Shown one piece after another: positions 22,656 through 37,228 of a DNA stretch of 64,000 bases; within the stretch, counting starts at the first letter, position 1, and each line of letters opens with the position of its first letter. Under the pieces are notes generated by a model. It was not told where the DNA came from and did no database searches. It saw only the letters and a list, made by a program, of their open reading frames with translations. Position numbers and translations under genes: made by a program. The stretch comes from a virus. The stretch lies in the IMG/VR virus record IMGVR_UViG_3300028377_000005, positions 51,648-115,647 of that record; one strand, written 5' to 3'.

Positions 22656-22686
22656 GTAGGCCCCCGGCTTCGGGTTGGGGGCCTAC
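22656..22686. terminator. Hairpin between convergent genes
   Basis: GTAGGCCCCC (22656-22665) pairs perfectly with GGGGGCCTAC (22677-22686) over an 11-base loop. It overlaps the stop codon of the minus-strand gene. No U-run on either side, so it may be a bidirectional barrier rather than a classical terminator. Confidence 0.65.
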
Positions 22687-23960
22687 TCATCTCCCCTGCT
22701 GTACTTCCAGATAGTATCCGGCAATTTCAACGTAATCGTGGCTCGGCAAGAGCACGTGACCAGCGGCTGTGACCTTTTCGGTGAACCTACGAAGATGCTT
22801 ACGCCCACCTTGATAGGCCCTTCATAGGCGAACACAGACGAAGCGTTATTGTCCCGAGGGGTGAGCGTTTTGATATCTAGCTCTTCGGGGAACACGTCAG
22901 TCCGCGCATAGTCCGGCGTCCCTAAGAAAGTGATGCCTTCCCGCCCGTAAAGACCTTCGAACTCTTCGAGCGATATATCATAGGCATAGGCGTTTGATTG
23001 CCTGTAGAGCGTGTCGTGGATACCCCACAAGAGGTCGGTAGCCAGTGTAGCTACCGATAGCCCTTCGAACGGATCGTCAAGCAGAGCACGGTCCTCACGC
23101 ATCGAGAAAAGCGCCGACGTCTTGAACGTAGTTTTTCGTTGGTCTTTTTTCCTAGCTTTTGGCTGCAAGTCTTTAGGGTGTCGCCACGTACTACCCGCCG
23201 TATTACTTGACGTATACGTAGTATCTCCGCGTGTCGAATACCACCACTTGTTACCCCCGTAGTCATCGGTGAATGTAGTAGCTCCGCCCCACCTGCCTTC
23301 GTAATAAGAGATGTATTTTTGGGTGTTGATATGCCGGTCTTCCGTAAGGAAATCGTAGCGACCCTCCATGTCTAGCGATATTTGCGCATTGAGCCAAGAT
23401 CGCACCTTACCGACGAGACCTTTCTTGAACCCGTAAACTTCATCTGAAAGGGTCTTTTTGAACGCGGGTGCCGCAAAGAGCAGGGTGAGGTTGGAGCGGA
23501 CCGTCTGAGACGTCGCATGTAGTTCTTCAAGGGCGGCGTCTAGCTTGGTCTGGATGTAAAACTCAGCGAACGGGTCACGTTCGATAAGCGGCTCGACCAT
23601 GCTTCGCATCTGTGCGGCTACGAGGTCCCGGACCTTAGACCCTTTACGGTTAAGCAGGATCCAGTCTCTGGCCATCGTGTGTATAAGGGATGCGCTATCA
23701 CGGTCGAGGTTGGGAAGTCCCTTACGGAGCGCCTCGTGGAATTGTGGGAGGCTTTTGTAATCGGGTAGTTTGTAATCGGCCCAATGACCGAAAGCGACCT
23801 TGAAAGCATAAGCAAAGTCACCGTCCTGTTGGCGGAGTTCGTATCGGTAGTGTGCTTGGACACGATCACGTGAAGCCCAGCGGGCCGCCCGTCTTTCGAT
23901 CGTAGGCTTGACGCTGGGCATTTCACCCTGTATGCGGTCCCGATTTTCCAGCCGTTTCAT
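22683..23960 (-). CDS. Hypothetical protein, 425 aa
   Basis: The start at 23960 is chosen because the longer frame reads through the terminator at 23995-24025; GGAAGG lies just upstream of this ATG. The basic N-terminal half is helical (residues 1-200). Residues 210-260 are rich in Trp, Tyr, Thr and Gly (GGNKWWYSTRGDTTYTSSN), unusual for a soluble enzyme, and the C-terminal 80 residues are beta-rich. No recognised family. Whether it is a virion or an early protein cannot be told. Confidence 0.6.
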   Translation of the reverse strand: MKRLENRDRIQGEMPSVKPTIERRAARWASRDRVQAHYRYELRQQDGDFAYAFKVAFGHWADYKLPDYKSLPQFHEALRKGLPNLDRDSASLIHTMARDWILLNRKGSKVRDLVAAQMRSMVEPLIERDPFAEFYIQTKLDAALEELHATSQTVRSNLTLLFAAPAFKKTLSDEVYGFKKGLVGKVRSWLNAQISLDMEGRYDFLTEDRHINTQKYISYYEGRWGGATTFTDDYGGNKWWYSTRGDTTYTSSNTAGSTWRHPKDLQPKARKKDQRKTTFKTSALFSMREDRALLDDPFEGLSVATLATDLLWGIHDTLYRQSNAYAYDISLEEFEGLYGREGITFLGTPDYARTDVFPEELDIKTLTPRDNNASSVFAYEGPIKVGVSIFVGSPKRSQPLVTCSCRATITLKLPDTIWKYSRGDE

Positions 23961-23994
23961 GCGCTTCGCCTTCCGAGGGGTTTCGTAATACCAA

Positions 23995-24025
23995 AAAGGG
24001 GACCCCAATCTATGGGATCCCCTTT
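23995..24025 (-). terminator. Rho-independent terminator after the Ycf46-like gene
   Basis: On the minus strand AAAGGGGA pairs with TCCCCTTT, with an inner CCC/GGG, followed by TTTTT counting the tail at 23997-23993. It follows the AAA+ ATPase stop by about 20 bases. Confidence 0.75.
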
Positions 24026-24045
24026 CCAACTTCGGGGTCGTCCCC

Positions 24046-25722
24046 TTAGTTCAGGTTGTCGGCGTCGGCGTCTTTTTTGCCGAACAGGTTGTTGAGTCGG
24101 TTACCCGAACCTCCCTCACCTTCGGCATAAATCACATCGGCCTCTACGACGTCCTCACCGGAAGCGTAACGGGCACGCACACCTTCGCGACGGTTCGCAT
24201 CCCAGCCTACCCAATCGAGTAGCTCTTGGATTTCCTCTTGCATCGTCAGCACAAGCGGAGGCTTGGTGCGGATGACGTCGAGGATGATTTCGGTCGTGAC
24301 CTCTTTTTCGTCGGACATGAACGCCTTACGGATAGCATCACATGCCACCTGTTCGATTTCACGGCCCGTAAGCTGGTCGGACGTGTCCGCCATTTCGGCG
24401 AAGTCCAGATCGTCCATGTCGCCCATCGAATCGTTCCAGTATTTTTCGAACTGGATACGAAAGCAATCTTCGCGGGCTTGACGTGCCGGAAGCCCCACGA
24501 AATATTTCTCTTCGAAACGACTGATAAGCTCGGGCGGCAAGTTGCCGATACCGTTAGCCGTGGCGATGATGAAAATGTCCTCGTCGTGGTCTTGGAACCA
24601 CGAAAGGAACGTACCAATCACGCGGGCCGTTGTACCGGAGTCGCTGTATGACGAGGACTGGATACCCGCCAGACCCTTTTCGATTTCGTCGATGAACACG
24701 ACGCACGGGGCCACAGCTTCGATGTAGTTGAGCGCTGCCCGCATGTTGCGCTCTGAATCACCAACCCGGCTGCTGAAAAGGTTGGAAGGATCGAACTTCA
24801 CGAACGTCACACCCATTTCGTTGGCCAGCGCCTTTGCGATAAGGGACTTACCGCAACCGGGAACGCCAACCTGTAGAAGGCCGCGAGACACGGGGACACC
24901 GTACTCTTTGCCTTCGGGGGTCCATGCCGAACGGACTTCGTAGAGGCGCTCTTTGAGCTTGTCCAGACCGGCGATATCGTTGAAGTCGATATCGGTTTCG
25001 AGCAACTCCAGAAGGCTGGTTTTCTGGATGATACCCTTGCGGTAGTTTTGCATGTCCTCAAGGGTCACACTCAAGTCTTGCGCCGCTGCGTAATGGATGA
25101 TGGTTTCCTTGATTTGGAAAACCGTCAGTCCACGGCACGCTTCCACAAAGGTCTGCGGAATGTCGTCGCCTTCACGATCGGAGGGCAGTGTGAAACTCTG
25201 GTCGTAGCTCTGGATCACCGCTTCGACCGATTGCAACACCTTCAGAATCAATTCGTCCGAGGGTGCATCGAAATCGTGGACAACCGCATAGGGTTCGAGT
25301 GCGTGCGGAACCTTGCCCGTCTGACTCACCAGAACCACGGTTCGGGTTGCCCGATCGTTGTGCGACGAAGACACGGCGATGTTCTTGAGCCGACGCTGAA
25401 CCTGTTGGTCTTGCATGAACCGATCGGCGTCCAACATGACGTAGTACAGGCTGTTCTCGTCCGGTGCCTGCGGCGTCTTGTACATGTTGATGAGCGCCTG
25501 ATGGACATTGACCGTATCCTTGTCCGTGGGGTGGTTCAAGGCGTTCCACTCGTCGATATAGCGGCCCGATTCCATCATGCCGAACGTGACGTTCCAGACG
25601 AACATCTCGTCCTTTTTGCCGATGGATTTGTGCAACTCTTCGATCAAGCGGTCTTCCTCGTGAGTTTTAATGACGAGGAGACGCGGTAGGGACCGAAGAT
25701 ACCCTTCCAATTCGTTATTCAT
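24046..25722 (-). CDS. Ycf46-like AAA+ ATPase
   Basis: A 558-aa protein with the two-part Ycf46 layout. Residues 1-230 are the family-specific N-terminal domain (RLLVIKTHEEDRLIEEL, YYVMLDADRFM, RTVVLVSQTGKVPHALEP, then LTVFQIKETI). Residues 240-480 are a AAA+ module with Walker A GVPGCGKS (286-293), Walker B VVFIDEIEKG (341-350), sensor-1 ATANG and the arginine region ELISRFEEKYFVGLP. Homologues occur in cyanobacteria, plastids and large phages with no settled biochemical role; protein remodelling is likely. Residues 520-558 are an acidic tail. It has its own promoter (25769-25796) and AAGGAAAG ribosome site. Two small neighbours resemble the usual partners Ycf35/DUF1257 and DUF2997. Confidence 0.85.
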   Translation of the reverse strand: MNNELEGYLRSLPRLLVIKTHEEDRLIEELHKSIGKKDEMFVWNVTFGMMESGRYIDEWNALNHPTDKDTVNVHQALINMYKTPQAPDENSLYYVMLDADRFMQDQQVQRRLKNIAVSSSHNDRATRTVVLVSQTGKVPHALEPYAVVHDFDAPSDELILKVLQSVEAVIQSYDQSFTLPSDREGDDIPQTFVEACRGLTVFQIKETIIHYAAAQDLSVTLEDMQNYRKGIIQKTSLLELLETDIDFNDIAGLDKLKERLYEVRSAWTPEGKEYGVPVSRGLLQVGVPGCGKSLIAKALANEMGVTFVKFDPSNLFSSRVGDSERNMRAALNYIEAVAPCVVFIDEIEKGLAGIQSSSYSDSGTTARVIGTFLSWFQDHDEDIFIIATANGIGNLPPELISRFEEKYFVGLPARQAREDCFRIQFEKYWNDSMGDMDDLDFAEMADTSDQLTGREIEQVACDAIRKAFMSDEKEVTTEIILDVIRTKPPLVLTMQEEIQELLDWVGWDANRREGVRARYASGEDVVEADVIYAEGEGGSGNRLNNLFGKKDADADNLN

Positions 25723-25768
25723 TTACTTTCCTTAATGCGTGTCGTAGTGGCTTCTTGGTACGTATCGT

Positions 25769-25796
25769 ATTGTACTGGATTGGGAGGGCGTGTCAA
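25769..25796 (-). promoter_or_regulatory. Sigma70-like promoter for the Ycf46-like gene
   Basis: TTGACA (25796-25791), 16 bases, TACAAT (25774-25769) on the minus strand, about 45 bases before the ATPase start. Confidence 0.7.
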
Positions 25797-25800
25797 CCGC

Positions 25801-26286
25801 CTATTTCAAGGGCGTCTTACCCATGAGTTCATAGGTTTCTTTGTCACTCATGTTTTCGCGCTTTTCCCATTCGGCAGGCTTTTCCTCGACGTAGGGTACA
25901 CGGCTTACTGGAATTTGTTTCTGTACCGTTTCGCAGTCGAGGATAAGGGCCAGTATTTCATCCCCTTCAGGTCCACAGATAAGCATGTTGCTTTCGGTAC
26001 CACACCCACCACACAGAACCCGAAGATCCTTTCCGGCAGACAAGACGTGGTGCGCCCAAATGCTGTTCTCTTTACTGTCTTTACTGATAGGGGTTTCCCG
26101 GAAATCCACGTCGGCGTCAGTGAAAACAAGCTCTTTCGGGATCCCCAGAGAAATACCTACAGCGAGGTCGTATTGAGGGTCCGCGATGTATAGGACAGGT
26201 TTCCCGCAATCACACACGTATTCTTTGCAATCGTATTTTTCGTCTGTGAGCGTTTCGTTGACCAGAAGGTCTTGTGGGGTAAGCAT
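25801..26286 (-). CDS. Paralogous zinc-binding-like protein (copy 2)
   Basis: A 161-aa protein; start at 26286 with GAGGTGA upstream. It has two Cys pairs, CDCG (near 26-29) and CGGCG (about 92-96), with IADPQYDLAVGISLGIPKEL between them and a C-terminal IPVSRVPYVEEKP. The same order (C-x-C, PxYDLxVGxSxxIPxELxFT, HVLxxG, CxxC, ICxxxG, IPxxR) occurs in the gene just upstream at 26374, so the two are tandem duplicates. The zinc ribbon is inferred from Cys spacing. Function unknown; adjacent to the Ycf46-like gene. Confidence 0.65.
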   Translation of the reverse strand: MLTPQDLLVNETLTDEKYDCKEYVCDCGKPVLYIADPQYDLAVGISLGIPKELVFTDADVDFRETPISKDSKENSIWAHHVLSAGKDLRVLCGGCGTESNMLICGPEGDEILALILDCETVQKQIPVSRVPYVEEKPAEWEKRENMSDKETYELMGKTPLK

Positions 26287-26314
26287 CGTATCACCTCGTA
26301 GGGGATATAAAAAT

Positions 26315-26337
26315 AGGGGCAACGTTGCCGTGCCCCT
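26315..26337 (-). terminator. Leader hairpin with U-run (terminator or attenuator)
   Basis: AGGGGCA/TGCCCCT stem on the minus strand, then ATTTTTATA. An alternative inner palindrome GGCAACGTTGCC overlaps the left arm. It lies between a possible promoter (26338-26367) and the gene at 26286, so it may limit read-through. Confidence 0.6.
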
Positions 26338-26367
26338 ACCTTACCCCTAACGTCCGCCCCGTGTCAA
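26338..26367 (-). promoter_or_regulatory. Possible sigma70-like promoter
   Basis: TTGACA (26367-26362), 18 bases, TAAGGT (26343-26338) on the minus strand. The -10 is poor, so this is a weaker candidate than the others. Confidence 0.4.
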
Positions 26368-26373
26368 AGATAA

Positions 26374-26883
26374 TCAATCTTCCAAGTTCCATTCCGTTTT
26401 GGGATGGGCTAGGAATCCGATACGGTCTTTCGGGATGGGTTTGTCGACGTGCTCATGCTTGACAGTCAGGACCAAGAGGCCGCCGTCTTTGCAGATAACG
26501 TATTGGTTTTCGTGGTCGCATTCGGGACAGGCAAACGAATAGATGTTGCCCGTAGCCAGTACGTGTCGCGACCAGAAACCTACCTCGCCCTTGCGAATTT
26601 CACCCTTGAGTTCGGTGAAAATCAACTCGATAGGAATCGAAGTTGATAACCCCACTTCGAGATCGTATTCCGGCTCAATGATGTTGAGAATGGGGGCTTC
26701 GCAGTCCGAGTTTTCACACGGAACAGTGAGACAGAGATAGTCGGATTGCGTAAATGGGCCGTTCGAGGTAATAGCAACCTTTGCGGTCCCAAAACGCCCT
26801 GCGGAAGAGACGATAGGTCCATCGTCTTGGTTTTCCGTCTGTTTGGTCTGGGCGTTCTCGATGAGACGCTTGAAACGGCTCAT
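26374..26883 (-). CDS. Paralogous zinc-binding-like protein (copy 1)
   Basis: A 169-aa protein with a GAGG ribosome site. After a variable 45-residue N-terminus it runs parallel to the next gene: CENSDCEAP, IIEPEYDLEVGLSTSIPIELIFT, SRHVLATGN, CPECDHENQYVIC and KPIPKDRIGFL. The second Cys pair is a clear CxxC; the first is CxxxxC. Probably a small zinc-stabilised fold repeated by gene duplication. No function recognised. Confidence 0.65.
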   Translation of the reverse strand: MSRFKRLIENAQTKQTENQDDGPIVSSAGRFGTAKVAITSNGPFTQSDYLCLTVPCENSDCEAPILNIIEPEYDLEVGLSTSIPIELIFTELKGEIRKGEVGFWSRHVLATGNIYSFACPECDHENQYVICKDGGLLVLTVKHEHVDKPIPKDRIGFLAHPKTEWNLED

Positions 26884-26919
26884 AATAAACCTCGTGCGAA
26901 TATGTTCTAGTATTTAATT

Positions 26920-26948
26920 TTGACAACCCCGAACCACTAGGGTATATG
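26920..26948 (+). promoter_or_regulatory. Promoter-like sequence pointing against the genes
   Basis: TTGACA (26920-26925), 17 bases, TATATG (26943-26948), then TTAGTG, the same block as in the minus-strand promoters but on the plus strand. A transcript would run antisense into the gene at 27000-27386. Confidence 0.5.
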
Positions 26949-26964
26949 TTAGTGGTTCGGGGTT
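26925..26964. repeat. Perfect 15-bp inverted repeat with 10-base loop
   Basis: AACCCCGAACCACTA (26925-26939) and TAGTGGTTCGGGGTT (26950-26964) are exact inverted copies. The -10 box of the plus-strand promoter-like sequence sits in the loop and the spacer in the left arm, so this could be an operator, a termination hairpin without a U-run, or both. Confidence 0.7.
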
Positions 26965-26999
26965 TCGATCCAACCCCTAAAGGCTAGACCCGGTTCGAT

Positions 27000-27386
27000 T
27001 TAGAACGATGCTCGCGAACGAATCACGATATCGCCTTCATCGATGACGTCGCCGAACCCTTCGATGTAGGTTCCAGCGGACGCTTCGAAAGTCTCGTCGA
27101 CCTGATGGCCTTCGAGCATCATGGTATCGAGCGCGAGGTTCTTGTTGTACACCTGAAAGAGGCGGTTCTGGACGAAGTTTTTCGCGTTGCGATCATCTTC
27201 GTCGAAGTGAACTTCTTGCGTATCGGTGTTGACACCCGCGCCAGTGTACATGAAGTTCTGGCCTTCAGCACCTTTCACGCGGAACCAAGCGCCTTCCTTG
27301 CGGAAGTTGGCTTCCAGATCGTTGAGCGACTGCTCAACAAGTTCTTCACGACCCATCTTTGTTTCAATAGTAATGCGTCTCGACAT
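27000..27386 (-). CDS. Candidate Ycf35/DUF1257-like protein
   Basis: A 128-aa protein beginning MSRRITIETKMGREELVEQS, which resembles the MSHxxxIxTxIxDxxxL opening of DUF1257 (Ycf35). In the second half, FVQNRLFQVYNKNLALDTMM followed by GHQVDETFE resembles the LxQxYAxxxAxxxxxxxGYxVxE segment of that family. The match is by pattern and not close. Support comes from context: a Ycf46-like ATPase lies 1.3 kb downstream and a DUF2997-like gene just upstream, the set usually found together. AGGTAATC precedes the ATG, right behind a leader-peptide stop. Confidence 0.5.
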   Translation of the reverse strand: MSRRITIETKMGREELVEQSLNDLEANFRKEGAWFRVKGAEGQNFMYTGAGVNTDTQEVHFDEDDRNAKNFVQNRLFQVYNKNLALDTMMLEGHQVDETFEASAGTYIEGFGDVIDEGDIVIRSRASF

Positions 27387-27397
27387 GTCGATTACCT

Positions 27398-27445
27398 CTA
27401 GTTGGGTAAAAGGGCTTGTAGCCCGTTAACTACGGGCTTACTCAT
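27398..27445 (-). CDS. 15-residue leader peptide
   Basis: ATG at 27445 with AGGG about 10 bases upstream encodes MSKPVVNGLQALLPN, ending at TAG (27400-27398) immediately before the ribosome site of the gene at 27386. It covers the alternative hairpins at 27408-27453 exactly, with three Leu codons near the terminator arm. Existence is inferred from position, not from homology. Confidence 0.4.
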   Translation of the reverse strand: MSKPVVNGLQALLPN

Positions 27446-27453
27446 GTAAGCCC
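27408..27453 (-). promoter_or_regulatory. Attenuator-like set of alternative hairpins
   Basis: On the minus strand segment A GGGCTTAC (27453-27446) pairs with GTAAGCCC (27441-27434). GCCCGT (27437-27432) pairs with ACGGGC (27426-27421). GGGCT (27424-27420) pairs with AGCCC (27416-27412), followed by TTTT. The middle pairing excludes both others, the classical anti-terminator layout. Confidence 0.55.
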
Positions 27454-27491
27454 TATTCCCTGCAGGGGAACTCTGTGAATTTTGCGATGAA

Positions 27492-27695
27492 TCAGTCGAT
27501 GCCGATGTGGCCAGTCTCGTGGACCGGCGCGCAATCGCCATCCGGCAATTCTTCATCGTCCGTGATGGTACCCATCTTGCGGGCCGCCACGTAGATGTTT
27601 TGGCACAGGTGCTGACCGCGATCAACCACCTGCTGAATGACAGACCCGTCCTTTTTGATGACGGTGATGTACTCCATGTCCCCATTGTTCGCCAT
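27492..27695 (-). CDS. Candidate DUF2997-like small protein
   Basis: A 67-aa protein with AGGAG before the ATG. MEYITVIKKDGSVIQQVVDRG followed by a Cys-containing helix (HLCQNIYVAARKMG) and an acidic tail is similar in size and order to DUF2997 (a short I-x-V/I-x-x-DG strand pair, then GxxC and a helix). DUF2997 genes usually accompany Ycf35/DUF1257 and Ycf46-like ATPases, as seen here. The assignment rests on pattern plus context and needs a profile search. Confidence 0.45.
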   Translation of the reverse strand: MANNGDMEYITVIKKDGSVIQQVVDRGQHLCQNIYVAARKMGTITDDEELPDGDCAPVHETGHIGID

Positions 27696-27744: not shown

Positions 27745-27773
27745 ACGATACCGTACCGTTTAGGGTGTGTCAA
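27745..27773 (-). promoter_or_regulatory. Sigma70-like promoter
   Basis: TTGACA (27773-27768), 17 bases, TATCGT (27750-27745) on the minus strand, upstream of the DUF2997-like gene. The -35 box includes the stop codon of the preceding gene. Confidence 0.65.
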
Positions 27774-28624
27774 TCCTTTTCTTCGGATTCGCTACGACCT
27801 TTATACTTATCGCTACGACCCTTGTCAACCTTCTCTGTTTTATCTACCAGCTTACCGTCCGACGCCCGCACGACTAAAGTCTCCTTTCCCTCTGAGGGAA
27901 TGGACCATGCGTCTTTATTGGGCTGCTGGGCCTTTTGGGAAGGTTTCATAACCTCCTCCTTGGGCTTCAGAAGGATACCGCCTTCCGGTACTTCGGTATT
28001 GTATCCAGAACGTGTTGAATCCGCAAGCTCTTTCTTACCCTCTTTAGCGGGTGGCGTAGGTTGATCTCTTTTCGCCACCTGTACTGGTTGCTGAGGTGTG
28101 TCCGGTTCGGGTTCTGATACTTGCGGTTCCGGCTGTGGTTCTGGCTCCTGCTCCTGTACAACATTTTCCGGGGGTTTCGTATTCGCTACGTCCTTTCCTT
28201 TTGCTGTTGCTAGCCGGTTGACCGAATCGTCTATTTTACCGCTATCATGGTTTTCTGACGCCGGGTTTGCCCGATGTATGATCGGTTCCTTTTGTTTCGG
28301 CTCAGGTTCCTTTTTGCCTTGGAACTGTTGCGGCTCCTCAAAACTATCCCACGATTGCAAGCGGACTTGCTGTTTTTCGTAAGATTCAAAGGCTTGATCT
28401 GCCAGCGGCTTGTATTCGGGGTCCTCTGGATTCACAAAATCCGGGGTCTGCAGCGCTTTGACTTGACGGTCCATCCGCTGTTGCCATTGCAAATCATTCA
28501 TTCGGCTGCGCTTGCAAGACGGATTGAGGCACCTTTTACAGTACGCCTCCATGAAATCACCAAAGCTGGCTTCCACACCCGTATCATCCATGCACTGATC
28601 AATATAGTCGTCAAGCGGGTTCAT
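27770..28624 (-). CDS. Low-complexity Pro/Glu/Gln-rich protein with N-terminal Cys motif
   Basis: About 284 aa; the start at 28624 is the ATG best spaced from GCAGG, with a GTG and another ATG 6 and 3 bases earlier. Residues 1-80 look folded, with YCKRCLNPSCKRS (about 28-40), a possible metal site, and a helical Gln-rich segment. From about residue 90 the chain is low-complexity (EPEPQPEPQ runs, Lys/Ser/Asp-rich end) and probably disordered. It directly follows the DNA polymerase gene, which carries a similar acidic Pro/Glu linker. A replication scaffold or partner is possible (inference). Confidence 0.6.
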   Translation of the reverse strand: MNPLDDYIDQCMDDTGVEASFGDFMEAYCKRCLNPSCKRSRMNDLQWQQRMDRQVKALQTPDFVNPEDPEYKPLADQAFESYEKQQVRLQSWDSFEEPQQFQGKKEPEPKQKEPIIHRANPASENHDSGKIDDSVNRLATAKGKDVANTKPPENVVQEQEPEPQPEPQVSEPEPDTPQQPVQVAKRDQPTPPAKEGKKELADSTRSGYNTEVPEGGILLKPKEEVMKPSQKAQQPNKDAWSIPSEGKETLVVRASDGKLVDKTEKVDKGRSDKYKGRSESEEKD

Positions 28625-28681
28625 CATCACCTGCTGTGTTATGTCCAGTCTCGTCGCATATAGACCACTTTTACAAGGGAA

Positions 28682-31600
28682 TTACCGGACTTCTTCGCCG
28701 TACAGGCCGAAGAAACGGGCCAGCGTTTCGAACTCTTTAGGCTCAATGAGGTGCTTATCCTCTTCCGAAATGATCACTTCCCCTTGCCAATCCAGTAAGC
28801 AAAGAGCGTAACTCCCCTTACCCTCGGCGCGGAAAAAATCGAAAATCTGATAGAGATAGCGCATCATTGTTCGGATATGGATCGGGTCGTTGCCATTATA
28901 AAGCCCCGGCCCATTCGCCAGTTGGTACGTGAAAATAGGACCATTCGCCCCTGTGCGCCCTTTCGATGAGCGAGCCTCTTTGATCGACATATAAAACTCC
29001 CTGATATTGCTGTACGTGATTTCAGGCTCCGGGTCCGTTTCCACGTCCTCGGTTTCCGAAGGTTCTTCGGTAATATCTTCCGGCTCGGGGTCAGGTTCGG
29101 GTTCCGGCTCGGGGTCGCCTTCGATCACGGTTTCGTTACCGTCGTCGTCAATGTACCACATGCCCGGTTGCATTTCGATATGATTCCACAAGTAGCGCGG
29201 AACCTTATCCTCAGCCTTACCCGTCTCCGGGTTAAGCGAATGCATAGCGTACCAGTTGTATGCTACGTTGAAATTCTGTCCAACTTCAACGTCACAAGAC
29301 AGCGGGACCGGCCACTTCATCTTGTCCCCAAGCTCGGTCATGATATCCGTAATCGCCGGGAACAGCTTGTCCATGTACTCGTTGCGAATCTCGAAAACAA
29401 GCTCGTCGTGAACAGTAATGATCAGACGGCAATCGTCAAGGTGGCCCTCACTTTTCAGATATTGGTATACGCGGCCCATGCAATACTTGGTAAGGTCGCC
29501 GGTGGCCGTTCCCTGAATGATACTGTTGATCGCGTTACGCTCGGCCTTAGAGCTAATCCACCCTTCGCTGTGGTCAATATCTCCTAGCCGCATCATACGA
29601 CCCACACCGGTGGCTACCTCTTTGTTTGCCTTGCACCGTTTGATTACTTCGCCGAACCATGTGTTAAGACGAGGCAAGCCAGACAGGACTTTGTTCCGAA
29701 TGAACGTACCTTCTTCACGGCTCACACCGGTTGATCTGGCAACCGCCGATCCCGAACCACCGTAAAGGATAGCGAAGTTTGCGCCTTTCGCTTTCTGGCG
29801 GTACTGCTTGAAGTCAGGCTTGTTGGTTACGTCGTCACCGAAAACAATCTTGGTGGTAAGCGTGTGGAGGTCACCAATCTTGTCCGACCCGCAATTAGTG
29901 CAAGTGCCGGGAGGCTTGTTTGGGATCTCATATTTCTTGAAGCCCAACGGGTTATCCGGCGTCAAATCTACGGGTTCACCGAACTCGGTATCGCATTTAC
30001 TGCACCGATAAAATTCTTCGATCCACTTCGGCTCTTGCGAAATGGATGCAGCGACTCTTAGCTCGACACCGGACTGGTCAATAGCGGCAATGGAGAAGCC
30101 TTCACGGGCGATAATTGCTGGCCGGGCGGAGGCGTCAAGGGATAGGATCTTGACGTTGATTTCGCCGTCTTCAGGCTCTTCTCCGTGCTGGCATTCCTCT
30201 ACGAACGGGCACCCTTCGCATGTGGACCGGACGCAATACTCTTGATCTTCGAGCGGGTCACGAACGAAATGGTTGTTGTACAGTCGGATCAAGAAATCAT
30301 TTTCGACGAACTCCACGAAGTTCTCATACAGGGTAGGATCTTCCTCCCCATCACCTTCCGGGCGGCGGATGATCTTTTTGCCGCTGAACTTACCGACATT
30401 GTAACCCGCAGGCATCGACTGGACGTTGATACCACTGTAACCTTGATCGGGCTTACCTTTCGATGCCGCATAACGTCCCGTATCGACGCGGTTAGGTAAG
30501 AACGAGAATCGGATCGTGTTGTCGTTTAGGACATGGTTAGGGTACGGACGAGTGCCGTCTGGTTTGATATACCCGTCTGTGTTGTATTGCAACGGGCGCA
30601 GGTACGTGCCGTCGACTTTCTGTAGCTTGCGGAAAGCTGTGATCTTCTTGATGAACGGCAGTTTATCACCCACCTTCTCCGCCAGTTTCGTGATCACGTC
30701 GTCAGAGGTTTTGACCTGTGGGTTGTCCTCGTTGTCGGTCATCGCCAGCTTGGTTTTGATATAGCCCCGCTCCTTTAGGAACGCGAGCGCTTCACCTAGC
30801 TTTTTGGGGCTGGACACGTCGTCTTCGTGGAAATACTCCATCCCCCTTTCCCGAATACCCGACGCAATATCGTTTTTCGCTTGGGTGATCATCTGGTCGA
30901 CTTCGAACCGTACCCGGTCGAGATAGTCGAGGTCCACTTTAGGCCGGTTGCGCTCCATCCATCGCAACGCGGGTACGTTGATCTTTTCGATGTAATAGAC
31001 GAACGGTTGGCTATCGTAAATCGACTTTTCACCGGGACTTACCGGTACACAGCCGAACACCGTTTCACCTTGTTCACCACGGCCTACCGGTTTGTACGAA
31101 TGTTCGCGGTAAAACTGAAACAAGAGGTACGTGCTGATTGCATCCGATCCCGCATATAGCACCACTGGTTCCCACGATGGGTCCAAGGTCGAAAAGTCAC
31201 GGTCCTTGATGTGCTCGGGGAAAAGCTCCTTGAGGCCGATCATTTCCATGTCAAGGAAACGTTTCGACAGGTGCTTGAGTCCGTGGCGCTTGTCCGATGA
31301 ATCCCGCAGGTAATCTAGGATCAAGGTGTCTTCGAACTCTTTGAAAGAGTCGATCTCAATGCCTTCGCCGTACAGGAATTCGTGGTCGAAAGCCGCGTTG
31401 TGGTAAATCGTAATGCAATTGGAACAGAGACGGGCAATCTCTTCCACAACCTCAGCCGGATCCAGATTGTAAGCAGCTCCGTCGCCTTTGTGTCTGACAG
31501 GCACGTAGACGCCTTCTTCACCGTCATAGCTTAGGCAATACCCGACTATCTTATGGACCGTCTCACCGTTGTCCCTGACCCGGTTGTCGAGGCCCTCCGT

Positions 31601-31774
31601 CTCCAAGTCAAGAGCACAATGGCCAGCTTCGATAGCCCGGTCAATGATAGACCGCAACTGTTCGATCGTACTGACCAGTGTAAACGTTTTATCTTCCATC
31701 CAAGGTTTCGGATCCACTTCGACTACGTTTTTGTAGCCGAACAGTGATTCAAAACCTAATTCTTCGTCAGCCAT
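28682..31774 (-). CDS. Family A DNA polymerase with 3'-5' exonuclease and Cys-rich insertions
   Basis: A 1030-aa polymerase. The exonuclease has DLE (56-58), HNAAFDHEF (125-133) and YAGSDAIST (208-215). The polymerase has motif A AIDQSGVELRVA (564-575), motif B RQKAKGANFAILYG (659-672) and motif C ITVHDELVFEI (786-796). Two unusual insertions are seen: C-x4-C-x2-C-x5-C (514-528) before motif A, and a zinc-ribbon-like CSKC...CTNC pair (591-628) between motifs A and B. After the palm an acidic EPEPEPDPEPE linker leads to a further 90-residue C-terminal domain. No 5' nuclease is present. The start at 31774 has GGAG seven bases upstream; the ATG at 31780 is too close. It lies in the replication operon. 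Confidence 0.9.
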   Translation of the reverse strand: MADEELGFESLFGYKNVVEVDPKPWMEDKTFTLVSTIEQLRSIIDRAIEAGHCALDLETEGLDNRVRDNGETVHKIVGYCLSYDGEEGVYVPVRHKGDGAAYNLDPAEVVEEIARLCSNCITIYHNAAFDHEFLYGEGIEIDSFKEFEDTLILDYLRDSSDKRHGLKHLSKRFLDMEMIGLKELFPEHIKDRDFSTLDPSWEPVVLYAGSDAISTYLLFQFYREHSYKPVGRGEQGETVFGCVPVSPGEKSIYDSQPFVYYIEKINVPALRWMERNRPKVDLDYLDRVRFEVDQMITQAKNDIASGIRERGMEYFHEDDVSSPKKLGEALAFLKERGYIKTKLAMTDNEDNPQVKTSDDVITKLAEKVGDKLPFIKKITAFRKLQKVDGTYLRPLQYNTDGYIKPDGTRPYPNHVLNDNTIRFSFLPNRVDTGRYAASKGKPDQGYSGINVQSMPAGYNVGKFSGKKIIRRPEGDGEEDPTLYENFVEFVENDFLIRLYNNHFVRDPLEDQEYCVRSTCEGCPFVEECQHGEEPEDGEINVKILSLDASARPAIIAREGFSIAAIDQSGVELRVAASISQEPKWIEEFYRCSKCDTEFGEPVDLTPDNPLGFKKYEIPNKPPGTCTNCGSDKIGDLHTLTTKIVFGDDVTNKPDFKQYRQKAKGANFAILYGGSGSAVARSTGVSREEGTFIRNKVLSGLPRLNTWFGEVIKRCKANKEVATGVGRMMRLGDIDHSEGWISSKAERNAINSIIQGTATGDLTKYCMGRVYQYLKSEGHLDDCRLIITVHDELVFEIRNEYMDKLFPAITDIMTELGDKMKWPVPLSCDVEVGQNFNVAYNWYAMHSLNPETGKAEDKVPRYLWNHIEMQPGMWYIDDDGNETVIEGDPEPEPEPDPEPEDITEEPSETEDVETDPEPEITYSNIREFYMSIKEARSSKGRTGANGPIFTYQLANGPGLYNGNDPIHIRTMMRYLYQIFDFFRAEGKGSYALCLLDWQGEVIISEEDKHLIEPKEFETLARFFGLYGEEVR

Positions 31775-32216
31775 TAGCATTCTCCGGTTGTACTAGTATC
31801 ACGTAAAACCCGAGCCGCCATAGATCATAGAGACGAGTTACTATCGGCCTTACACGGTCGTTGTCCACATTTGCGTCGTAACAAGGGGGTGGGGTTTGGT
31901 GCGCCTCGCATACTCCTTTTTCGAAGCTGGGGCAGCTATCTTTATAATGACACGTCTTGATCTCAAGAGCGAGCTTCATAAAGCAAGCGTCCGCGTCTAG
32001 TCCAACTTCATCGAGAAAAGGCCGGGTATACCGGTGCTTTAGTTCGAAGTAGGCTTGGCTAGATATGGGGCTAATCAAGTCCCTGATACTTTCTAATTCT
32101 TCGGCGGTACGTAAAGGCTCCCAATCGTCTTCCCACGTACCATCGTCGTTAACGGTGATAGCGAAGATCGAAAGGGTGCCCCACGTATCGTCATGAATTT
32201 GAAACTGACTGGGCAT
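31767..32216 (-). CDS. Hypothetical Cys-containing protein, 149 aa
   Basis: Its end overlaps the polymerase start (ATGGCTGA) and its start overlaps the upstream gene by 26 bases. A Cys cluster at about residues 91-116 (CHYKDSC, then CEAHQTPPPC) could bind metal. The N-terminal 70 residues are mixed, and the C-terminus ends with aromatic strands (LWRLGFYVILVQP). No recognised family; co-translated with the polymerase. Confidence 0.6.
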   Translation of the reverse strand: MPSQFQIHDDTWGTLSIFAITVNDDGTWEDDWEPLRTAEELESIRDLISPISSQAYFELKHRYTRPFLDEVGLDADACFMKLALEIKTCHYKDSCPSFEKGVCEAHQTPPPCYDANVDNDRVRPIVTRLYDLWRLGFYVILVQPENANG

Positions 32217-32653: not shown

Positions 32654-33253
32654 TCACGTTTCCCATTTCTTAACACGATCATACACCTTTCGGAGTACTT
32701 TGACAACCCGATCATCTTCGACATTTCCGTGCTGGACGTCGTAACGCAGGTTATCGAGTACGAAAAATATTTTGGTTGCTTGTTTCCACGTGATCTTACC
32801 GTGGAACTCCCGTATGGACCGAGCTATCTTAGTCTCGGCCCGGTCGATATTATCTAGGAGGGTGGGGGCCGTCTGTTGCTTTCGTAACAACGCCCCCATT
32901 TCACGTCGGGTCTTTTTATCGGAAGGATCGAACGAGGGTGTGGGGACATCCGTCACGCCGAACGAGCGTTCGATAAACGAAAGCGCCTTACCAAACGACA
33001 ACCCTTCCGCATCACGTACCCACTCTACAACATCCCGATCTTTGTGGCAGGCAAAGCAATAGGTCGAATCGGATTCGGGATACATCCGGGCTGAGTAACT
33101 GTTGTCTTGTCCATCACCGTGGAGGGGGCACGGGAATTGGAACTCCCGTTCACGAGTGCGGATACGGACCCCGTAGTAATCGAGGACGTCTTGCATCTCC
33201 ACTTGGCCCTTGATGTTCTCGACGCGCTCTTTGTTGTAGGCATCCCAATCCAT
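32654..33253 (-). CDS. Primase-type CHC2 zinc-finger protein without TOPRIM
   Basis: A 199-aa protein whose N-terminal 100 residues match the DnaG zinc-binding domain: CPLHGDGQDNSYSARMYP then YCFACHKDRDVVEWVRD and GLSFGKALSFIERSFG. The C-terminal half is helical and holds no TOPRIM motifs (no EGxxD or DxD), so the RNA-synthesis part is missing here and must be elsewhere or absent. Its ATG overlaps the helicase stop (TAATG). It probably guides primer synthesis at the DnaB-type helicase. Confidence 0.8.
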   Translation of the reverse strand: MDWDAYNKERVENIKGQVEMQDVLDYYGVRIRTREREFQFPCPLHGDGQDNSYSARMYPESDSTYCFACHKDRDVVEWVRDAEGLSFGKALSFIERSFGVTDVPTPSFDPSDKKTRREMGALLRKQQTAPTLLDNIDRAETKIARSIREFHGKITWKQATKIFFVLDNLRYDVQHGNVEDDRVVKVLRKVYDRVKKWET

Positions 33254-34782
33254 TATTCTTCACCCTCTTCGCTTGTTGCTTCTTGGCCCATCATGTCCTC
33301 TTCGATGATACGTTGCATGTCCTCTTGACTGTTGGCGTTCAACATGCGGTGATCTGAAGCGGTCGAAAAGTCGTTGTAGAGGTAGCGCGTTTCCCAATCC
33401 ACATTGGCTGTGAAAGGTAGAAAATGCGGGTTGTCTCGGTTCTTCAGGCAACCGAACTTCATCGAACGGTTGGCCCGCAAATCGTTGTTGAGGAAAGACG
33501 TTGTAATCACGTCAGACGAACGCTCCGCTTCGTTTGAGTCAGCGAGCGCCTGCATCTTGTATACACCGTCGTTCTTTTCAGCTTCGAGCTTACCACTACG
33601 GTTGATCTGAAGCAGGCCGAGGATCGGTATACGCTCGCCGCCGTTAAACGACAGAGCCAAACGCTTGGTATCCCGGACGATACTGTTGAGGTCCGTGTAA
33701 TAATTACGGGTCGACTTTTCAGGACGCATCAACGCAAAGTGATCCACGATGCACATGTGCAAAGGCGTCTGTTGGTGCGTGATCTCCATGTCTTGGCGAA
33801 GGCGGGGGACCGTCACTTCTTCATCCGGGCTGCGAACGATAAAGGACCCGTAACTTTTGCCCCGGTTCTCTTCAACATCGTCAATAACGTGGCGGTAAAA
33901 CTCTTTTTGCTCTTCACTGATCGGGTTGCCTTCTACATCTTCACCGTCACGAATAAGGCGGTAAGATAGGCGAGGCCAACCTTGCCCTTGGAATTTCGGG
34001 TGGTTGGAGTGCATCACGTAAATGATGCGTCGGATCTGATCTACCGGCATCTCCAGTGACAGGTAATATACGTTGTGTTGCAATAGGAACACAGCGCGAT
34101 ACGCCCAATTCAATGCAAAGCCGGTTTTGAACTCACCGGTGAAGCCCGCGTGGGTCCACATCTCCCCGGACTTGATACCACGACACACCTGATCAATGTC
34201 CCGAAGTCCCGTAATAACACCCCATGATTTTTTCCGAGCGGCACATACCCGATCGAACTCTTCGCGCACCTCTTGCGAATCATAAGTAATGTTGGACTTT
34301 GTGCGTTGGCCACGGTCGGAAGCTAGGAGGTCGTCGGCGTTTTTCATGATGTACTTCATGGCCCCTCTGTGGCCTTTGTACGTCACGGTTTCACGCCCCT
34401 CCTTGATTGTCAGTCCGTCAAACAGGATCTGCGCCGACGTTTTCAAAACGACGTGCATTTCCTGATCTTTTTGGAGCTTGACTTCCTCTTCAATCAGGTT
34501 TTCGAAGTCGCTATTTTCATAGACCCGCGTAAATGATGCGATCTCATCTAGGCGGTCAACGGTCGACAGTTCCCCGTGGCGCTCTAGGAAATCCCGGATG
34601 GTATCCGTCGTCGGACACGCGGAATAGTTGAGCGCATAGTTCTGGATGTAGTTCCAGATTTCCCGATCTTCCTCGTCGGCGAGCGACAAGCTGGATTGGG
34701 ATAGATAGATGTAATTCTTCAGGAGAGAGTCTTGGGAGACCTGACCATCGGCGTCAATGACCGATCTTAAAATTTTCTTCAT
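33253..34782 (-). CDS. DnaB-like replicative helicase
   Basis: A 509-aa helicase. The N-terminal helical domain (1-150) is followed by a RecA-type ATPase: GLRDIDQVCRGIKSGEM, Walker A HAGFTGEFKTG (213-220), VYYLSLEMP, MCIVDHFALM as Walker B, then ILGLLQINRSG and SFLNNDLRANRS with finger arginine candidates. The Walker A is GFTGEFKT with Phe where the usual motif has Gly before Lys, an unusual form. It is expressed with the zinc-finger primase and a candidate loader. Confidence 0.85.
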   Translation of the reverse strand: MKKILRSVIDADGQVSQDSLLKNYIYLSQSSLSLADEEDREIWNYIQNYALNYSACPTTDTIRDFLERHGELSTVDRLDEIASFTRVYENSDFENLIEEEVKLQKDQEMHVVLKTSAQILFDGLTIKEGRETVTYKGHRGAMKYIMKNADDLLASDRGQRTKSNITYDSQEVREEFDRVCAARKKSWGVITGLRDIDQVCRGIKSGEMWTHAGFTGEFKTGFALNWAYRAVFLLQHNVYYLSLEMPVDQIRRIIYVMHSNHPKFQGQGWPRLSYRLIRDGEDVEGNPISEEQKEFYRHVIDDVEENRGKSYGSFIVRSPDEEVTVPRLRQDMEITHQQTPLHMCIVDHFALMRPEKSTRNYYTDLNSIVRDTKRLALSFNGGERIPILGLLQINRSGKLEAEKNDGVYKMQALADSNEAERSSDVITTSFLNNDLRANRSMKFGCLKNRDNPHFLPFTANVDWETRYLYNDFSTASDHRMLNANSQEDMQRIIEEDMMGQEATSEEGEE

Positions 34783-34818
34783 GGTCGTACCGTGTGTCGT
34801 GGGTGGCGGTAATTAGTC

Positions 34819-35547
34819 TTAGAGCAAGTCACTGAGATTCACGTCAGCTTTCTTCCGCTTGACCTTTTTCCCGCTTGCATCTTTTGTTTCAGTCTCCCGC
34901 ATAACGATCCCTTCGTGGAGGCTTTTCGTCTGGATGGAGGGCTTGATCTTTTTCTGTTGGAAATTCTCAACGATGTATTCTTCGACTTCCGGCGACCAGC
35001 ACAGGTGCCCTTTGGTGAAGGGGTGTGCGTGCGGGTTGACAACCCATGTAGGCTTACCTTCGAACGTGCGGACCCGGAGGGCTTCGAGGATAACGCCCGG
35101 CAATGCACGGTTGGGATAAGACACGACGCAAAGGAAAATGATCAAGAGATCGGGGTCCTCTACAAGATCACGCAGTGACGTGAAATCTACCGTCTCAGCG
35201 GTGCCTTCCTCTTGGGAGTGCGAACGTTCCTTGGAAAGCCAAGCGTCAAGCATCTGGCTATCATTCGTGACCCGGCTAAAGTAATTTAACCCTTGGTCGA
35301 TCAAGGAGTATCGAACGTGTGGCAAAAAGTCCCGTCGTGTTGAAGTCACGAACAGGTTCTTTTCGACGCACTTTTTGTAGGGGCTGTCGTCGATATCTGG
35401 CGCATCGAAAATCTCTTTGCCTAGCTTGCTTCGGTACAGTGATCTAAGCGTACACCGGCACCGGACCCTAGAGTCGGGATCTTCAGGTACGGGCAAATAC
35501 CCCGCCCCACCGCAAATGGTGCATGTTCGCTGTTCTTTACTCATCAT
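34819..35547 (-). CDS. DnaC-like candidate helicase loader, degenerate
   Basis: A 242-aa protein beginning inside the end of the SNF2 gene (ATG at 35547, GGGA upstream). The N-terminus has CTICGGAGY and RCRC in the arrangement of zinc fingers found in phage and bacterial helicase loaders. Later, DLLIIFLCVVSYPNRALPGV (about 150-170) and GKPTWVV look like the Walker B and following strand of a DnaC-type ATPase. No P-loop is visible, so ATP binding is probably lost. The neighbouring DnaB-like helicase supports the call, which remains tentative. Confidence 0.5.
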   Translation of the reverse strand: MMSKEQRTCTICGGAGYLPVPEDPDSRVRCRCTLRSLYRSKLGKEIFDAPDIDDSPYKKCVEKNLFVTSTRRDFLPHVRYSLIDQGLNYFSRVTNDSQMLDAWLSKERSHSQEEGTAETVDFTSLRDLVEDPDLLIIFLCVVSYPNRALPGVILEALRVRTFEGKPTWVVNPHAHPFTKGHLCWSPEVEEYIVENFQQKKIKPSIQTKSLHEGIVMRETETKDASGKKVKRKKADVNLSDLL

Positions 35548-37228
35548 GGAGTTCCCTTGCGCTTTTGTATAACTGAGCGAAAATGTCCCCGGTATCACTA
35601 CCCGATCTAAAGATCTCCTCGCCAGCGTCCTCGTTGCCGAGAATACGTTCGCCGAGGGCACCTTCGATAAAGCCCATTTTCTTATTGAGTGTTGATGTCA
35701 CGTGTTGATCGATAGTTTGCTCGCCCCACGGCCCTTCGGACAGGAGGTGGATTGAGTATACGCTCTGGTGGGGTGATCCAATACGAATCATTCGTCCTAC
35801 TAACTGCAGATAATCACCGGCTGACCACGGCAGATCAAAGAATACCATAACGCGGGCCTGTTGCAAGTTCATTGCTTCAGCACCGGCCATTGTCAAGAAG
35901 ATTGTATTGGTCCCTTCCGTTTCAGTAAAGGCGATCCTGCCCGCATCGCGTTCGTCACTGTCCTCAGAACCCGTCACACGTGCAAAGCCTTTTTCGATGT
36001 CACGCTTAGGTACGTATTCTTTGCCGTCCTTTTCAACGGCATAGGTGTAACCTTTCTGCTCAAGGAGGTATTGCAAGCGATCGACCATTTGCCGGAACCG
36101 GCTGAATACGATCACCTTTTCCCCGGCTAGGTCCTCTTCCAAGAGGTCCATGAGCATATCGACTTTTCTGGCTTCACCTTCGTTGCCGATAAGGAAAGGG
36201 TCGTTAGCGATCTGTTGGCAATAGATCAACTGTGTGAGCTTGGTGGTTTCCTTTTCTTCCTCATCGTCCGTGCCTTCATTGACCGTCAGAAGCCCCTGAA
36301 GCGCCTCGTTGTAGTACTCCCACTGTACCCCGGACATGGGGATATTGATCTCTTTGGTGGTGAGTACGGGAAGCTCCTTGGCGACGTGGTGCTTGGCACG
36401 CCCAAGGTAATAAGGGTCGATCTTGTTCTTGAAAAGCTCGATGTGATCTTTACTGTGCCCCACCACCACTTTGACTTTGCGGCCCCCGCCGATAGGCTGG
36501 AACCGTGTAACACAATAGTTGCTCAAAAAAGCGGTCTTGGTTCGGAAAACATCAGGGTTGATCACCTTGAAAATGCCATATCCCTCGACCAAGTTGTTCT
36601 TGATCAGGGTAGCTGTAAGCCCGTAGGTACGGGCGCTTTTTTCGGACAGTTGCTTACAAACTTTGTGCGTTTTGGATTTGGTGCTTTTGAATGCCGTAGC
36701 CTCGTCACCTACCATAACCACACGCACGTCATCTCGGTCGAGATAGTCACGCATTTCATCGCGCCAATCCCTACGGAGACGCGGGTAATTCATGATGAGG
36801 ACACGTGGCCTTTCGGGATCCCACGTGGTGAAGTAGTCCTCGTAAACAGCAGCACGCTCCGCAGGCCCTCCCGCTGCGATCACCCAATCCACATTACGTG
36901 TGAATTTGTCGATCTCACCGCCCCATTGCCGCATTGCGGAGGTGGTAGTGAGGACGATAGGACGGAGATCAGGCTCCTTTTCCCAAAGATAACACATCGT
37001 AGCGATCGCTTCAAGCGTCTTACCCAAACCGGTATCGTCACCACAGATGAAACTTTTCATCATCAACATGTGGTAGACCATCTGGATCTGGTAAGGCCGC
37101 AACTGAAGCGGTACCTCTTCCCCATTTGGTTTTTCAATGGTTTCCCGCAAAAACTTGCAGGGTTTCAGCTTGATATTTTCGGAAGCGCGTATCTTGAGGA
37201 GTTTTTCGTAAACCGGGTTCTCTTTCAT
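35537..37228 (-). CDS. SNF2-type DEAD/H helicase
   Basis: A 563-aa superfamily 2 protein. LRPYQIQMVYHMLM is followed by Walker A GDDTGLGKT (63-71), LTTTSAMRQW, VMVGDEATAFK (motif II as DEAT rather than DEAH), GLTATLIKN (motif III), VIVFSRFRQMVDRL (motif IV), LTMAGAEAMNLQQA (motif V) and QLVGRMIRIGSP (motif VI). These enzymes move on double-stranded DNA and remodel forks or displace proteins; similar ones such as T4 UvsW act in phage recombination. It is in the replication operon, overlapping the candidate loader gene by 11 bases. Confidence 0.85.
   Translation of the reverse strand: MKENPVYEKLLKIRASENIKLKPCKFLRETIEKPNGEEVPLQLRPYQIQMVYHMLMMKSFICGDDTGLGKTLEAIATMCYLWEKEPDLRPIVLTTTSAMRQWGGEIDKFTRNVDWVIAAGGPAERAAVYEDYFTTWDPERPRVLIMNYPRLRRDWRDEMRDYLDRDDVRVVMVGDEATAFKSTKSKTHKVCKQLSEKSARTYGLTATLIKNNLVEGYGIFKVINPDVFRTKTAFLSNYCVTRFQPIGGGRKVKVVVGHSKDHIELFKNKIDPYYLGRAKHHVAKELPVLTTKEINIPMSGVQWEYYNEALQGLLTVNEGTDDEEEKETTKLTQLIYCQQIANDPFLIGNEGEARKVDMLMDLLEEDLAGEKVIVFSRFRQMVDRLQYLLEQKGYTYAVEKDGKEYVPKRDIEKGFARVTGSEDSDERDAGRIAFTETEGTNTIFLTMAGAEAMNLQQARVMVFFDLPWSAGDYLQLVGRMIRIGSPHQSVYSIHLLSEGPWGEQTIDQHVTSTLNKKMGFIEGALGERILGNEDAGEEIFRSGSDTGDIFAQLYKSARELHDE

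Follow-up and report, generated by a model that had tools for sequence, protein, structure and literature searches.

The window considered here is a stretch of 64,000 nucleotides, positions 51,648-115,647 of the 115.6-kb IMG/VR virus record IMGVR_UViG_3300028377_000005. It carries the gene of a Ycf46-type AAA+ ATPase and, on the same strand, genes for a divergent relative of DUF1257 (Ycf35), a candidate DUF2997 protein, and two cysteine-rich proteins. The module formed by Ycf46, DUF1257, and often DUF2997 is real, it is old in phages, and it is not confined to cyanobacteria; it is very likely that the window genes belong to it. A sequence-only reading of this DNA had proposed that a conserved multi-gene system is carried here, and the neighbourhoods of related ATPases, which were not selected on the partners, support the proposal strongly.

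Distribution of the module in viruses and cells

Relatives were fetched by ATPase similarity alone and the best matches were listed, with the exception of six phage and six plasmid regions that were picked by hand from the match lists; the counts of viral sources and of cellular or plasmid loci in this text are counts among the matches listed. The viral set consists of 130 sources including the window, or 120 after removal of ten near-duplicates. A DUF1257-like gene is found in 80 of the 130 sources, a DUF2997-like gene in 74, and both in 70; in the non-redundant set the figures are 75, 69, and 66 of 120, respectively. Among 86 cellular and plasmid loci, 50 have a DUF1257-like gene, 59 a DUF2997-like gene, 35 both, and 74 at least one. 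All partner genes from viral and cellular sources lie on the strand of the ATPase (253/253). With Pfam models alone (E<=0.01), 50 ATPase-bearing records (44 virus contigs and 6 phage genomes) give DUF1257 in 15 and DUF2997 in 26, some of these matches being far from the ATPase.

The cellular loci span Cyanobacteriota, Myxococcota, Spirochaetota, Bacillota, Actinomycetota, Tenacibaculum, and a Hodarchaeota metagenome-assembled genome. Conservation of Ycf46 and Ycf35 extends over cyanobacteria and many plastids, and no biochemical role is known for either protein. A purely photosynthetic role is disfavoured, since the same linkage is present in many phages, in distant bacteria, and in the archaeal genome. 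In an ATPase tree constructed by a quick method, from which 15 short or duplicate viral loci and rows below 440 aa were left out, the phage rows stay largely together, with 8 label changes as compared with 65 in shuffles. Therefore, the module is old in phages. The same tree groups the window with two other viral loci, L001 (from a 437-kb IMG/VR virus) and L049, with a support of 99.

The two partner domains also occur joined together: one viral open reading frame (ORF) beside the ATPase, L115 8085-8666, naturally joins a DUF1257-like domain to a DUF2997 domain. A model of this fusion, predicted from an alignment restricted to DUF1257 rows, has pLDDT 79.4, and its DUF2997 part is weaker. A Foldseek search of this model against the PDB gives no match at E<=0.001, and a BFVD search gives one match (E 2e-6), a 147-aa viral protein without a name. 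A likeness of the model to the KA1 domain was set aside because its best Z of 5.7 is too low to carry meaning. Another frequent neighbour is a protein of about 314 aa (cluster c1), which is near the ATPase in 55 of the 130 viral sources; DUF1257 is also present in 51 of these 55.

The ATPase and its small neighbours

The features of the region are as follows.

24046..25722, minus strand: Ycf46-type AAA+ ATPase, 558 aa (Pfam, PHROG, alignment and motifs, BLASTP)
25769..25796, minus strand: sigma70-like promoter match TTGACA-16-TACAAT, 11/12, just upstream of the ATPase gene
25801..26322, minus strand: cysteine-rich (zinc-ribbon-like) protein copy 2, 173 aa from TTG (paralogue of copy 1)
26374..26883, minus strand: cysteine-rich (zinc-ribbon-like) protein copy 1, 169 aa (paralogy; homologue at L001 7392-7916)
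26925..26964, no strand: perfect 15-nt inverted repeat (spacer of 10 nt) in the stretch separating the 128-aa gene from copy 1
27000..27386, minus strand: divergent DUF1257 (Ycf35) relative, 128 aa (profile, hhalign)
27492..27695, minus strand: DUF2997 candidate, 67 aa (position beside the DUF1257 gene, spacing motif, L001 copy)
27770..28630, minus strand: 286-aa protein, C-x2-C-x4-C motif (conserved) and Pro/Glu-rich tail (similarity and synteny with L001)

On the minus strand, PolA (28682-31780) is followed by the 286-aa, 67-aa, and 128-aa proteins, the two cysteine-rich proteins, the ATPase, and a 448-aa protein. PhoH is on the plus strand, with a dCTP deaminase-like gene further along, and genes for DnaB-like and other helicases are located at 33253-37228. 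The ORFs confirm the same-strand gene run that had been described from the sequence; the cysteine-rich pair had been placed between the two small genes, and this part has to be corrected, since the pair fills the gap between the ATPase and both of them.

The ATPase aligns with a homologue from Crocosphaera (L178) over 512 columns at 32% identity (E=2e-77, BLASTP) and is therefore assigned to the Ycf46 type over its whole length; the Crocosphaera protein was taken as Ycf46 from its DUF1257 neighbour and gene order, not from a named record. Pfam detects one AAA domain at residues 283-410 (1.4e-28), and phrog_8638, a family of unknown function, covers the protein near full length (6.8e-92). The N-terminal half is without a P-loop, and the C-terminal AAA domain has Walker A (K292), Walker B (D345 E346), N390, and R402. 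The same layout appears among 202 homologues: the first 200 residues contain no Walker A in any of them, and 182 match the Walker A pattern in the remainder; the Walker B pattern was too strict, and its 75 matches out of 202 are uninformative. The best PDB matches of a profile of eight phage homologues are VCP-like/Cdc48 chains. Overall, the full two-domain Ycf46-like ATPase of the sequence-only reading is borne out by the Pfam domain, the motifs, the PDB profile, and the full-length alignment, and the protein is almost certainly of the Ycf46 type.

The Pfam DUF1257 model (PF06868) gives no match to the 128-aa protein or anywhere in its own record. Iterated DUF1257 and DUF2997 profiles were seeded from Pfam matches near the ATPase, with the window and L001 left out. 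Among 15,604 ORFs, the DUF1257 profile finds the window protein at E=1.8e-4 and its L001 counterpart at 4.9e-6, and hhalign of this pair gives 93.8% (P=1.7e-7), which is as high as none of 3,993 ORFs of similar length. Its suggested likeness to DUF1257 thus holds by iterated profile and hhalign, though the Pfam model itself is silent, and homology is highly probable from these comparisons. Since the score is below the Pfam gathering score, the protein is termed a divergent relative and not a Pfam member. Its N-terminus is MSRR (MSRK in L001) in place of the MSH or MPC motif of the family; neither start is present in 26 of 100 related DUF1257/DUF2997 pairs. A tblastn search with the 128-aa protein against 50,697 phage records gave no match, IMG/VR pattern scans with single proteins gave none, NCBIfam and PADLOC returned nothing usable for the small proteins, and PHROGs returned weak matches only.

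The 67-aa protein is 65% identical to its L001 counterpart and occupies a position in which DUF2997 genes are frequently found. The profile side of the suggested DUF2997 likeness fails: the protein has no Pfam (PF11211) match, it scores 2.7 bits with the iterated DUF2997 profile and 0.9 bits with a merged profile (134 of 6,416 unrelated small ORFs score as much), and hhalign to DUF2997 gives 1.5-8.8%. The part that stands is the position together with a G-x13-C spacing, which is also found in 68 of 103 DUF2997 members and 134 of 6,416 decoys, and which was picked after the window sequence had been seen. Cys31 is at the family spacing, and there is a second conserved Cys55/His59. Its position and a single spacing motif make the 67-aa protein no more than a candidate, for which DUF2997 homology is slightly favoured.

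The duplicated cysteine-rich proteins

The two cysteine-rich proteins are paralogues (34% identity, E=3e-22) with five cysteine columns common to both copies and to the L001 homologue; the duplication noticed in the sequence is thereby confirmed. The likelier start of copy 2 is an ATG at 26286, 12 codons in. Neither protein has a PDB or family match; copy 2 has no Pfam, NCBIfam, or PADLOC family, and its best PHROG has E=0.28. A zinc ribbon would have four ligands in two knuckles; five common cysteine columns are seen here, and the AlphaFold model of the cysteine protein has pLDDT 36, that is, no usable fold.

The pair had been put forward as two extra zinc proteins belonging to the system, and the chance that they are working components of the module appears to be about even. 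The family has two copies in its own record and one in the virus of L001 (7392-7916), where it occupies the same slot: the slot between DUF1257 and the ATPase is kept, while the ATPases are 55% identical and the cysteine proteins 33%. A somewhat smaller chance is given to the opposite explanation, in which the pair has nothing to do with the ATPase module and just happens to sit between its genes in one large-phage lineage; the kept slot speaks against this, and the narrow distribution speaks for it. The family is known from two viruses, in single copy in the second. It was not found in the record of L049, the next closest relative, nor in the 86 cellular and plasmid loci; tblastn of copy 1 against 50,697 phage records gave no match, and pattern scans of IMG/VR and genome_contigs, which have limited reach, gave the L001 contig alone. 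Of the expectation that such a pair would accompany Ycf46 genes elsewhere, a single copy beside the L001 ATPase is what was recovered, and the pair itself was found nowhere else in these searches. The duplicated pair is a lineage-specific variant. Both the missing fold and the absence from the L049 record count against the remodelling scheme set out below.

Possible functions of the module

One possible scheme, preferred tentatively, describes the window genes as the form that the Ycf46-DUF1257-(DUF2997) module takes in one phage lineage, with a remodelling ATPase acting on a small-protein unit. The ATPase ring would spend ATP on remodelling, loading, or releasing this unit, in which DUF1257- and DUF2997-type proteins would together carry a metal or thiol site, and the target of the unit would be met early in infection. 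In the window lineage, DUF1257 is without the usual His or Cys at residue 3, and the cysteine-rich proteins may supply the metal binding; alternatively, they may be lineage-specific adaptors. Such an ATPase working on a metal or thiol unit is favoured, at low confidence, because of the same-strand linkage of the genes, the fusion in L115, the likeness to VCP/Cdc48, the pair types, the His-rich tails, the metal-linked neighbours (among them the NrdG-like radical SAM gene of cellular and plasmid loci), and the matching gene order in L001. The metal or thiol part is a predicted chemistry and, taken by itself, is doubtful.

The pair types were compared in 100 DUF1257/DUF2997 pairs, 25 of which are labelled MPC-type (DUF1257 with Cys3; one of these is MSC). 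The DUF2997 cysteine is kept in 74 of the 75 non-MPC pairs, and among the 25 MPC-labelled pairs it is lacking in 21, and 21 have a tail of 4 or more His. Examples of MPC-paired DUF2997 proteins with a His-rich C-terminal tail and without the family cysteine are seen in L006, L012, L015, and L024. Tails of this kind are typically found in metallochaperones, for example UreE or SlyD. Repeated independent co-change of the two partners, as suggested by the ATPase tree, where 6 of 8 branches are shared, was rejected, since the partner trees (without rows above 260 aa, the DUF2997 tree by a quick method) show about one clade per type.

Stress- and metal-linked contexts are seen in cyanobacteria. In 15 cyanobacterial loci, a gene of about 116 aa, the ATPase, and DUF1257 follow in that order; the 116-aa protein is ribbon-helix-helix-like by eye, for which Pfam gives no support. 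This order matches the slr0373-slr0374-slr0376 stress operon of Synechocystis, which is described in passages of PMC7496141 and PMC7283877, and slr0376 would thus be the DUF1257 gene. Passages of PMC7496141 also name iron deficiency as one of the stresses that elicit a response of the ycf46 operon, and state that inactivation of ycf46 lowers the activity of the carbonic anhydrase EcaB. A duf2997-ycf35-fed7 ferredoxin cluster is mentioned in part of a Synechocystis review (PMC4284462).

Several further points weigh against the remodelling scheme. An aromatic pore-loop 1 residue is generally a requirement for substrate-threading AAA unfoldases. The window ATPase has R-V-G at this position, in common with L001 and L049, and the residue varies across the family (L 88, F 29, I 21, Y 20, R 4, and W 3; n=187). 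Therefore, classical threading by an aromatic paddle is disfavoured, because the residue is R here and is variable and only partly aromatic in the relatives. A single operon is only a possibility, since the ATPase has its own promoter-like match; promoter matches in the region are not above shuffles (13 versus 10.0, standard deviation 3.3). Finally, 23 of the 25 MPC-labelled DUF1257s fall in one clade, and the matched types reflect, for the most part, the transfer of a single old pair type as a cassette, not repeated convergence.

The main rival, held to be rather unlikely, is a replication-stage factor: the ATPase would remodel phage or host replication complexes with the small proteins as adaptors, and no metal chemistry would be involved. 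The window gene run is directly downstream of PolA and near PhoH, the DnaB-like helicase, and the dCTP deaminase-like gene, and annotated phages of Pseudomonas and alphaproteobacteria have DnaB and PolA following within several kb. However, a member of five replication-type clusters occurs within 6 kb in only 25 of the 120 non-redundant viral sources, and cellular copies adjoin radical SAM, HHH-membrane, or contractile-injection genes instead of replication genes.

These cellular neighbours suggest another possibility, in which the phage would carry a cut-down version of a cellular protein-modification pathway that depends on radical SAM chemistry, with the enzyme taken from the host. An NrdG-like radical SAM gene (cluster b3) is present in 37 of the 86 cellular and plasmid loci (e.g. 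L203 4038-4643 and L148 10088-10690), a membrane-HHH protein in 26, often together with the radical SAM gene, and a Fer4_12 protein (cluster c23) in the viral loci L050, L051, L053, and L054. The scanned window genes give no radical SAM match, and the listed cyanobacterial (b6-type) and Myxococcota loci are without such a gene, which makes this pathway quite improbable. Slightly better placed, and still improbable, is the more far-reaching idea that Ycf46-DUF1257-DUF2997 is an unrecognised ATP-driven machine for handling metals or thiols, distributed among phages, plasmids, and prokaryotes, whose metal site would have moved out of the DUF1257/DUF2997 pair and into the duplicated cysteine proteins in the window lineage.

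Least probable is a defence or counter-defence system of the IetAS/SgiAT kind, in which the AAA ATPase would be the antitoxin or the partner of a protease. The AAA domains are related: PADLOC IetA profiles match that of the window ATPase at 2.8e-27, and the SGI1 antitoxin sgiA is described as SpoVK/Ycf46/Vps4-related in a passage of PMC10954446. Unlike these systems, the window has no protease partner, as no peptidase is seen among ten Pfam-scanned neighbours and no S8-like motif pair in the ORFs of window positions 14000-40000; the score with the NCBIfam anti-phage ATPase IteA, 92.4 bits, is far below the curated cut-off of 510.

Comparison with known systems and further observations

The window set resembles the cyanobacterial and plastid Ycf46-Ycf35-DUF2997 set in its full-length ATPase architecture and in a DUF1257 relative on the same strand, but the ATPase branches with L001 and L049 among phage rows, DUF1257 is below the Pfam cut-off, DUF2997 is a 67-aa candidate, and two cysteine proteins are inserted. 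Rhizobium phage RHph_I4 similarly has an ATPase, a DUF1257-type gene, and a gene of 70 aa on a single strand, with DnaB and PolA nearby; unlike the window, its ATPase comes first with the small genes after it, and a 212-aa protein lies between in place of the cysteine pair. The L001 virus has the same order (PolA, 287 aa, 71 aa, DUF1257-type, cysteine protein, ATPase), with a single cysteine protein and no 448-aa gene after the ATPase. A module of this kind is already known in annotation, since Rhizobium phage entries name DUF1257 and DUF2997 next to the ATPase. Going by titles, abstracts, and passages, literature searches turned up no paper on the phage module, and the cysteine-pair variant is new within the literature searched. 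Phages offer a small, genetically tractable setting for the function of the module; the two matched partner types and the natural fusion yield testable predictions of complex formation and metal binding, and, in one lineage, the cysteine pair is a candidate for an additional component.

Within the window, the 286-aa protein is 32% identical to L001 5357-6220 (E=2e-33) in the same slot and is possibly a further member of the gene run. The inverted repeat at 26925..26964 is a candidate regulatory or terminator hairpin and is absent from the terminator scan output. The 448-aa protein (22683-24029), directly after the ATPase, has no family match and is not seen in the L001 locus.

Among the relatives, a Streptococcus satellite phage (L043 5959-7536) has a Ycf46-type ATPase for which no DUF1257 or DUF2997 partner was detected. 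In actinophage-type loci, a protein of about 115 aa with an MPCDT start, a central Cys, and an HSHDGG tail (cluster c6, e.g. L074 6994-7398) lies beside the ATPase. It occurs together with DUF1257 or DUF2997 matches in none of 16 loci, hhalign gives 7% to DUF1257 and 77% over 22 columns to DUF2997, and it is a possible single-protein replacement for the partners. In an IncC-type plasmid region (L135), the ATPase, a DUF1257-like gene of 130 aa, and DUF2997 lie upstream of ParB, and in the Spirochaetota loci L131, L143, and L213 the ATPase, a radical SAM gene, and (in two of the three) DUF2997 are located inside a contractile-injection or tail-like gene cluster.

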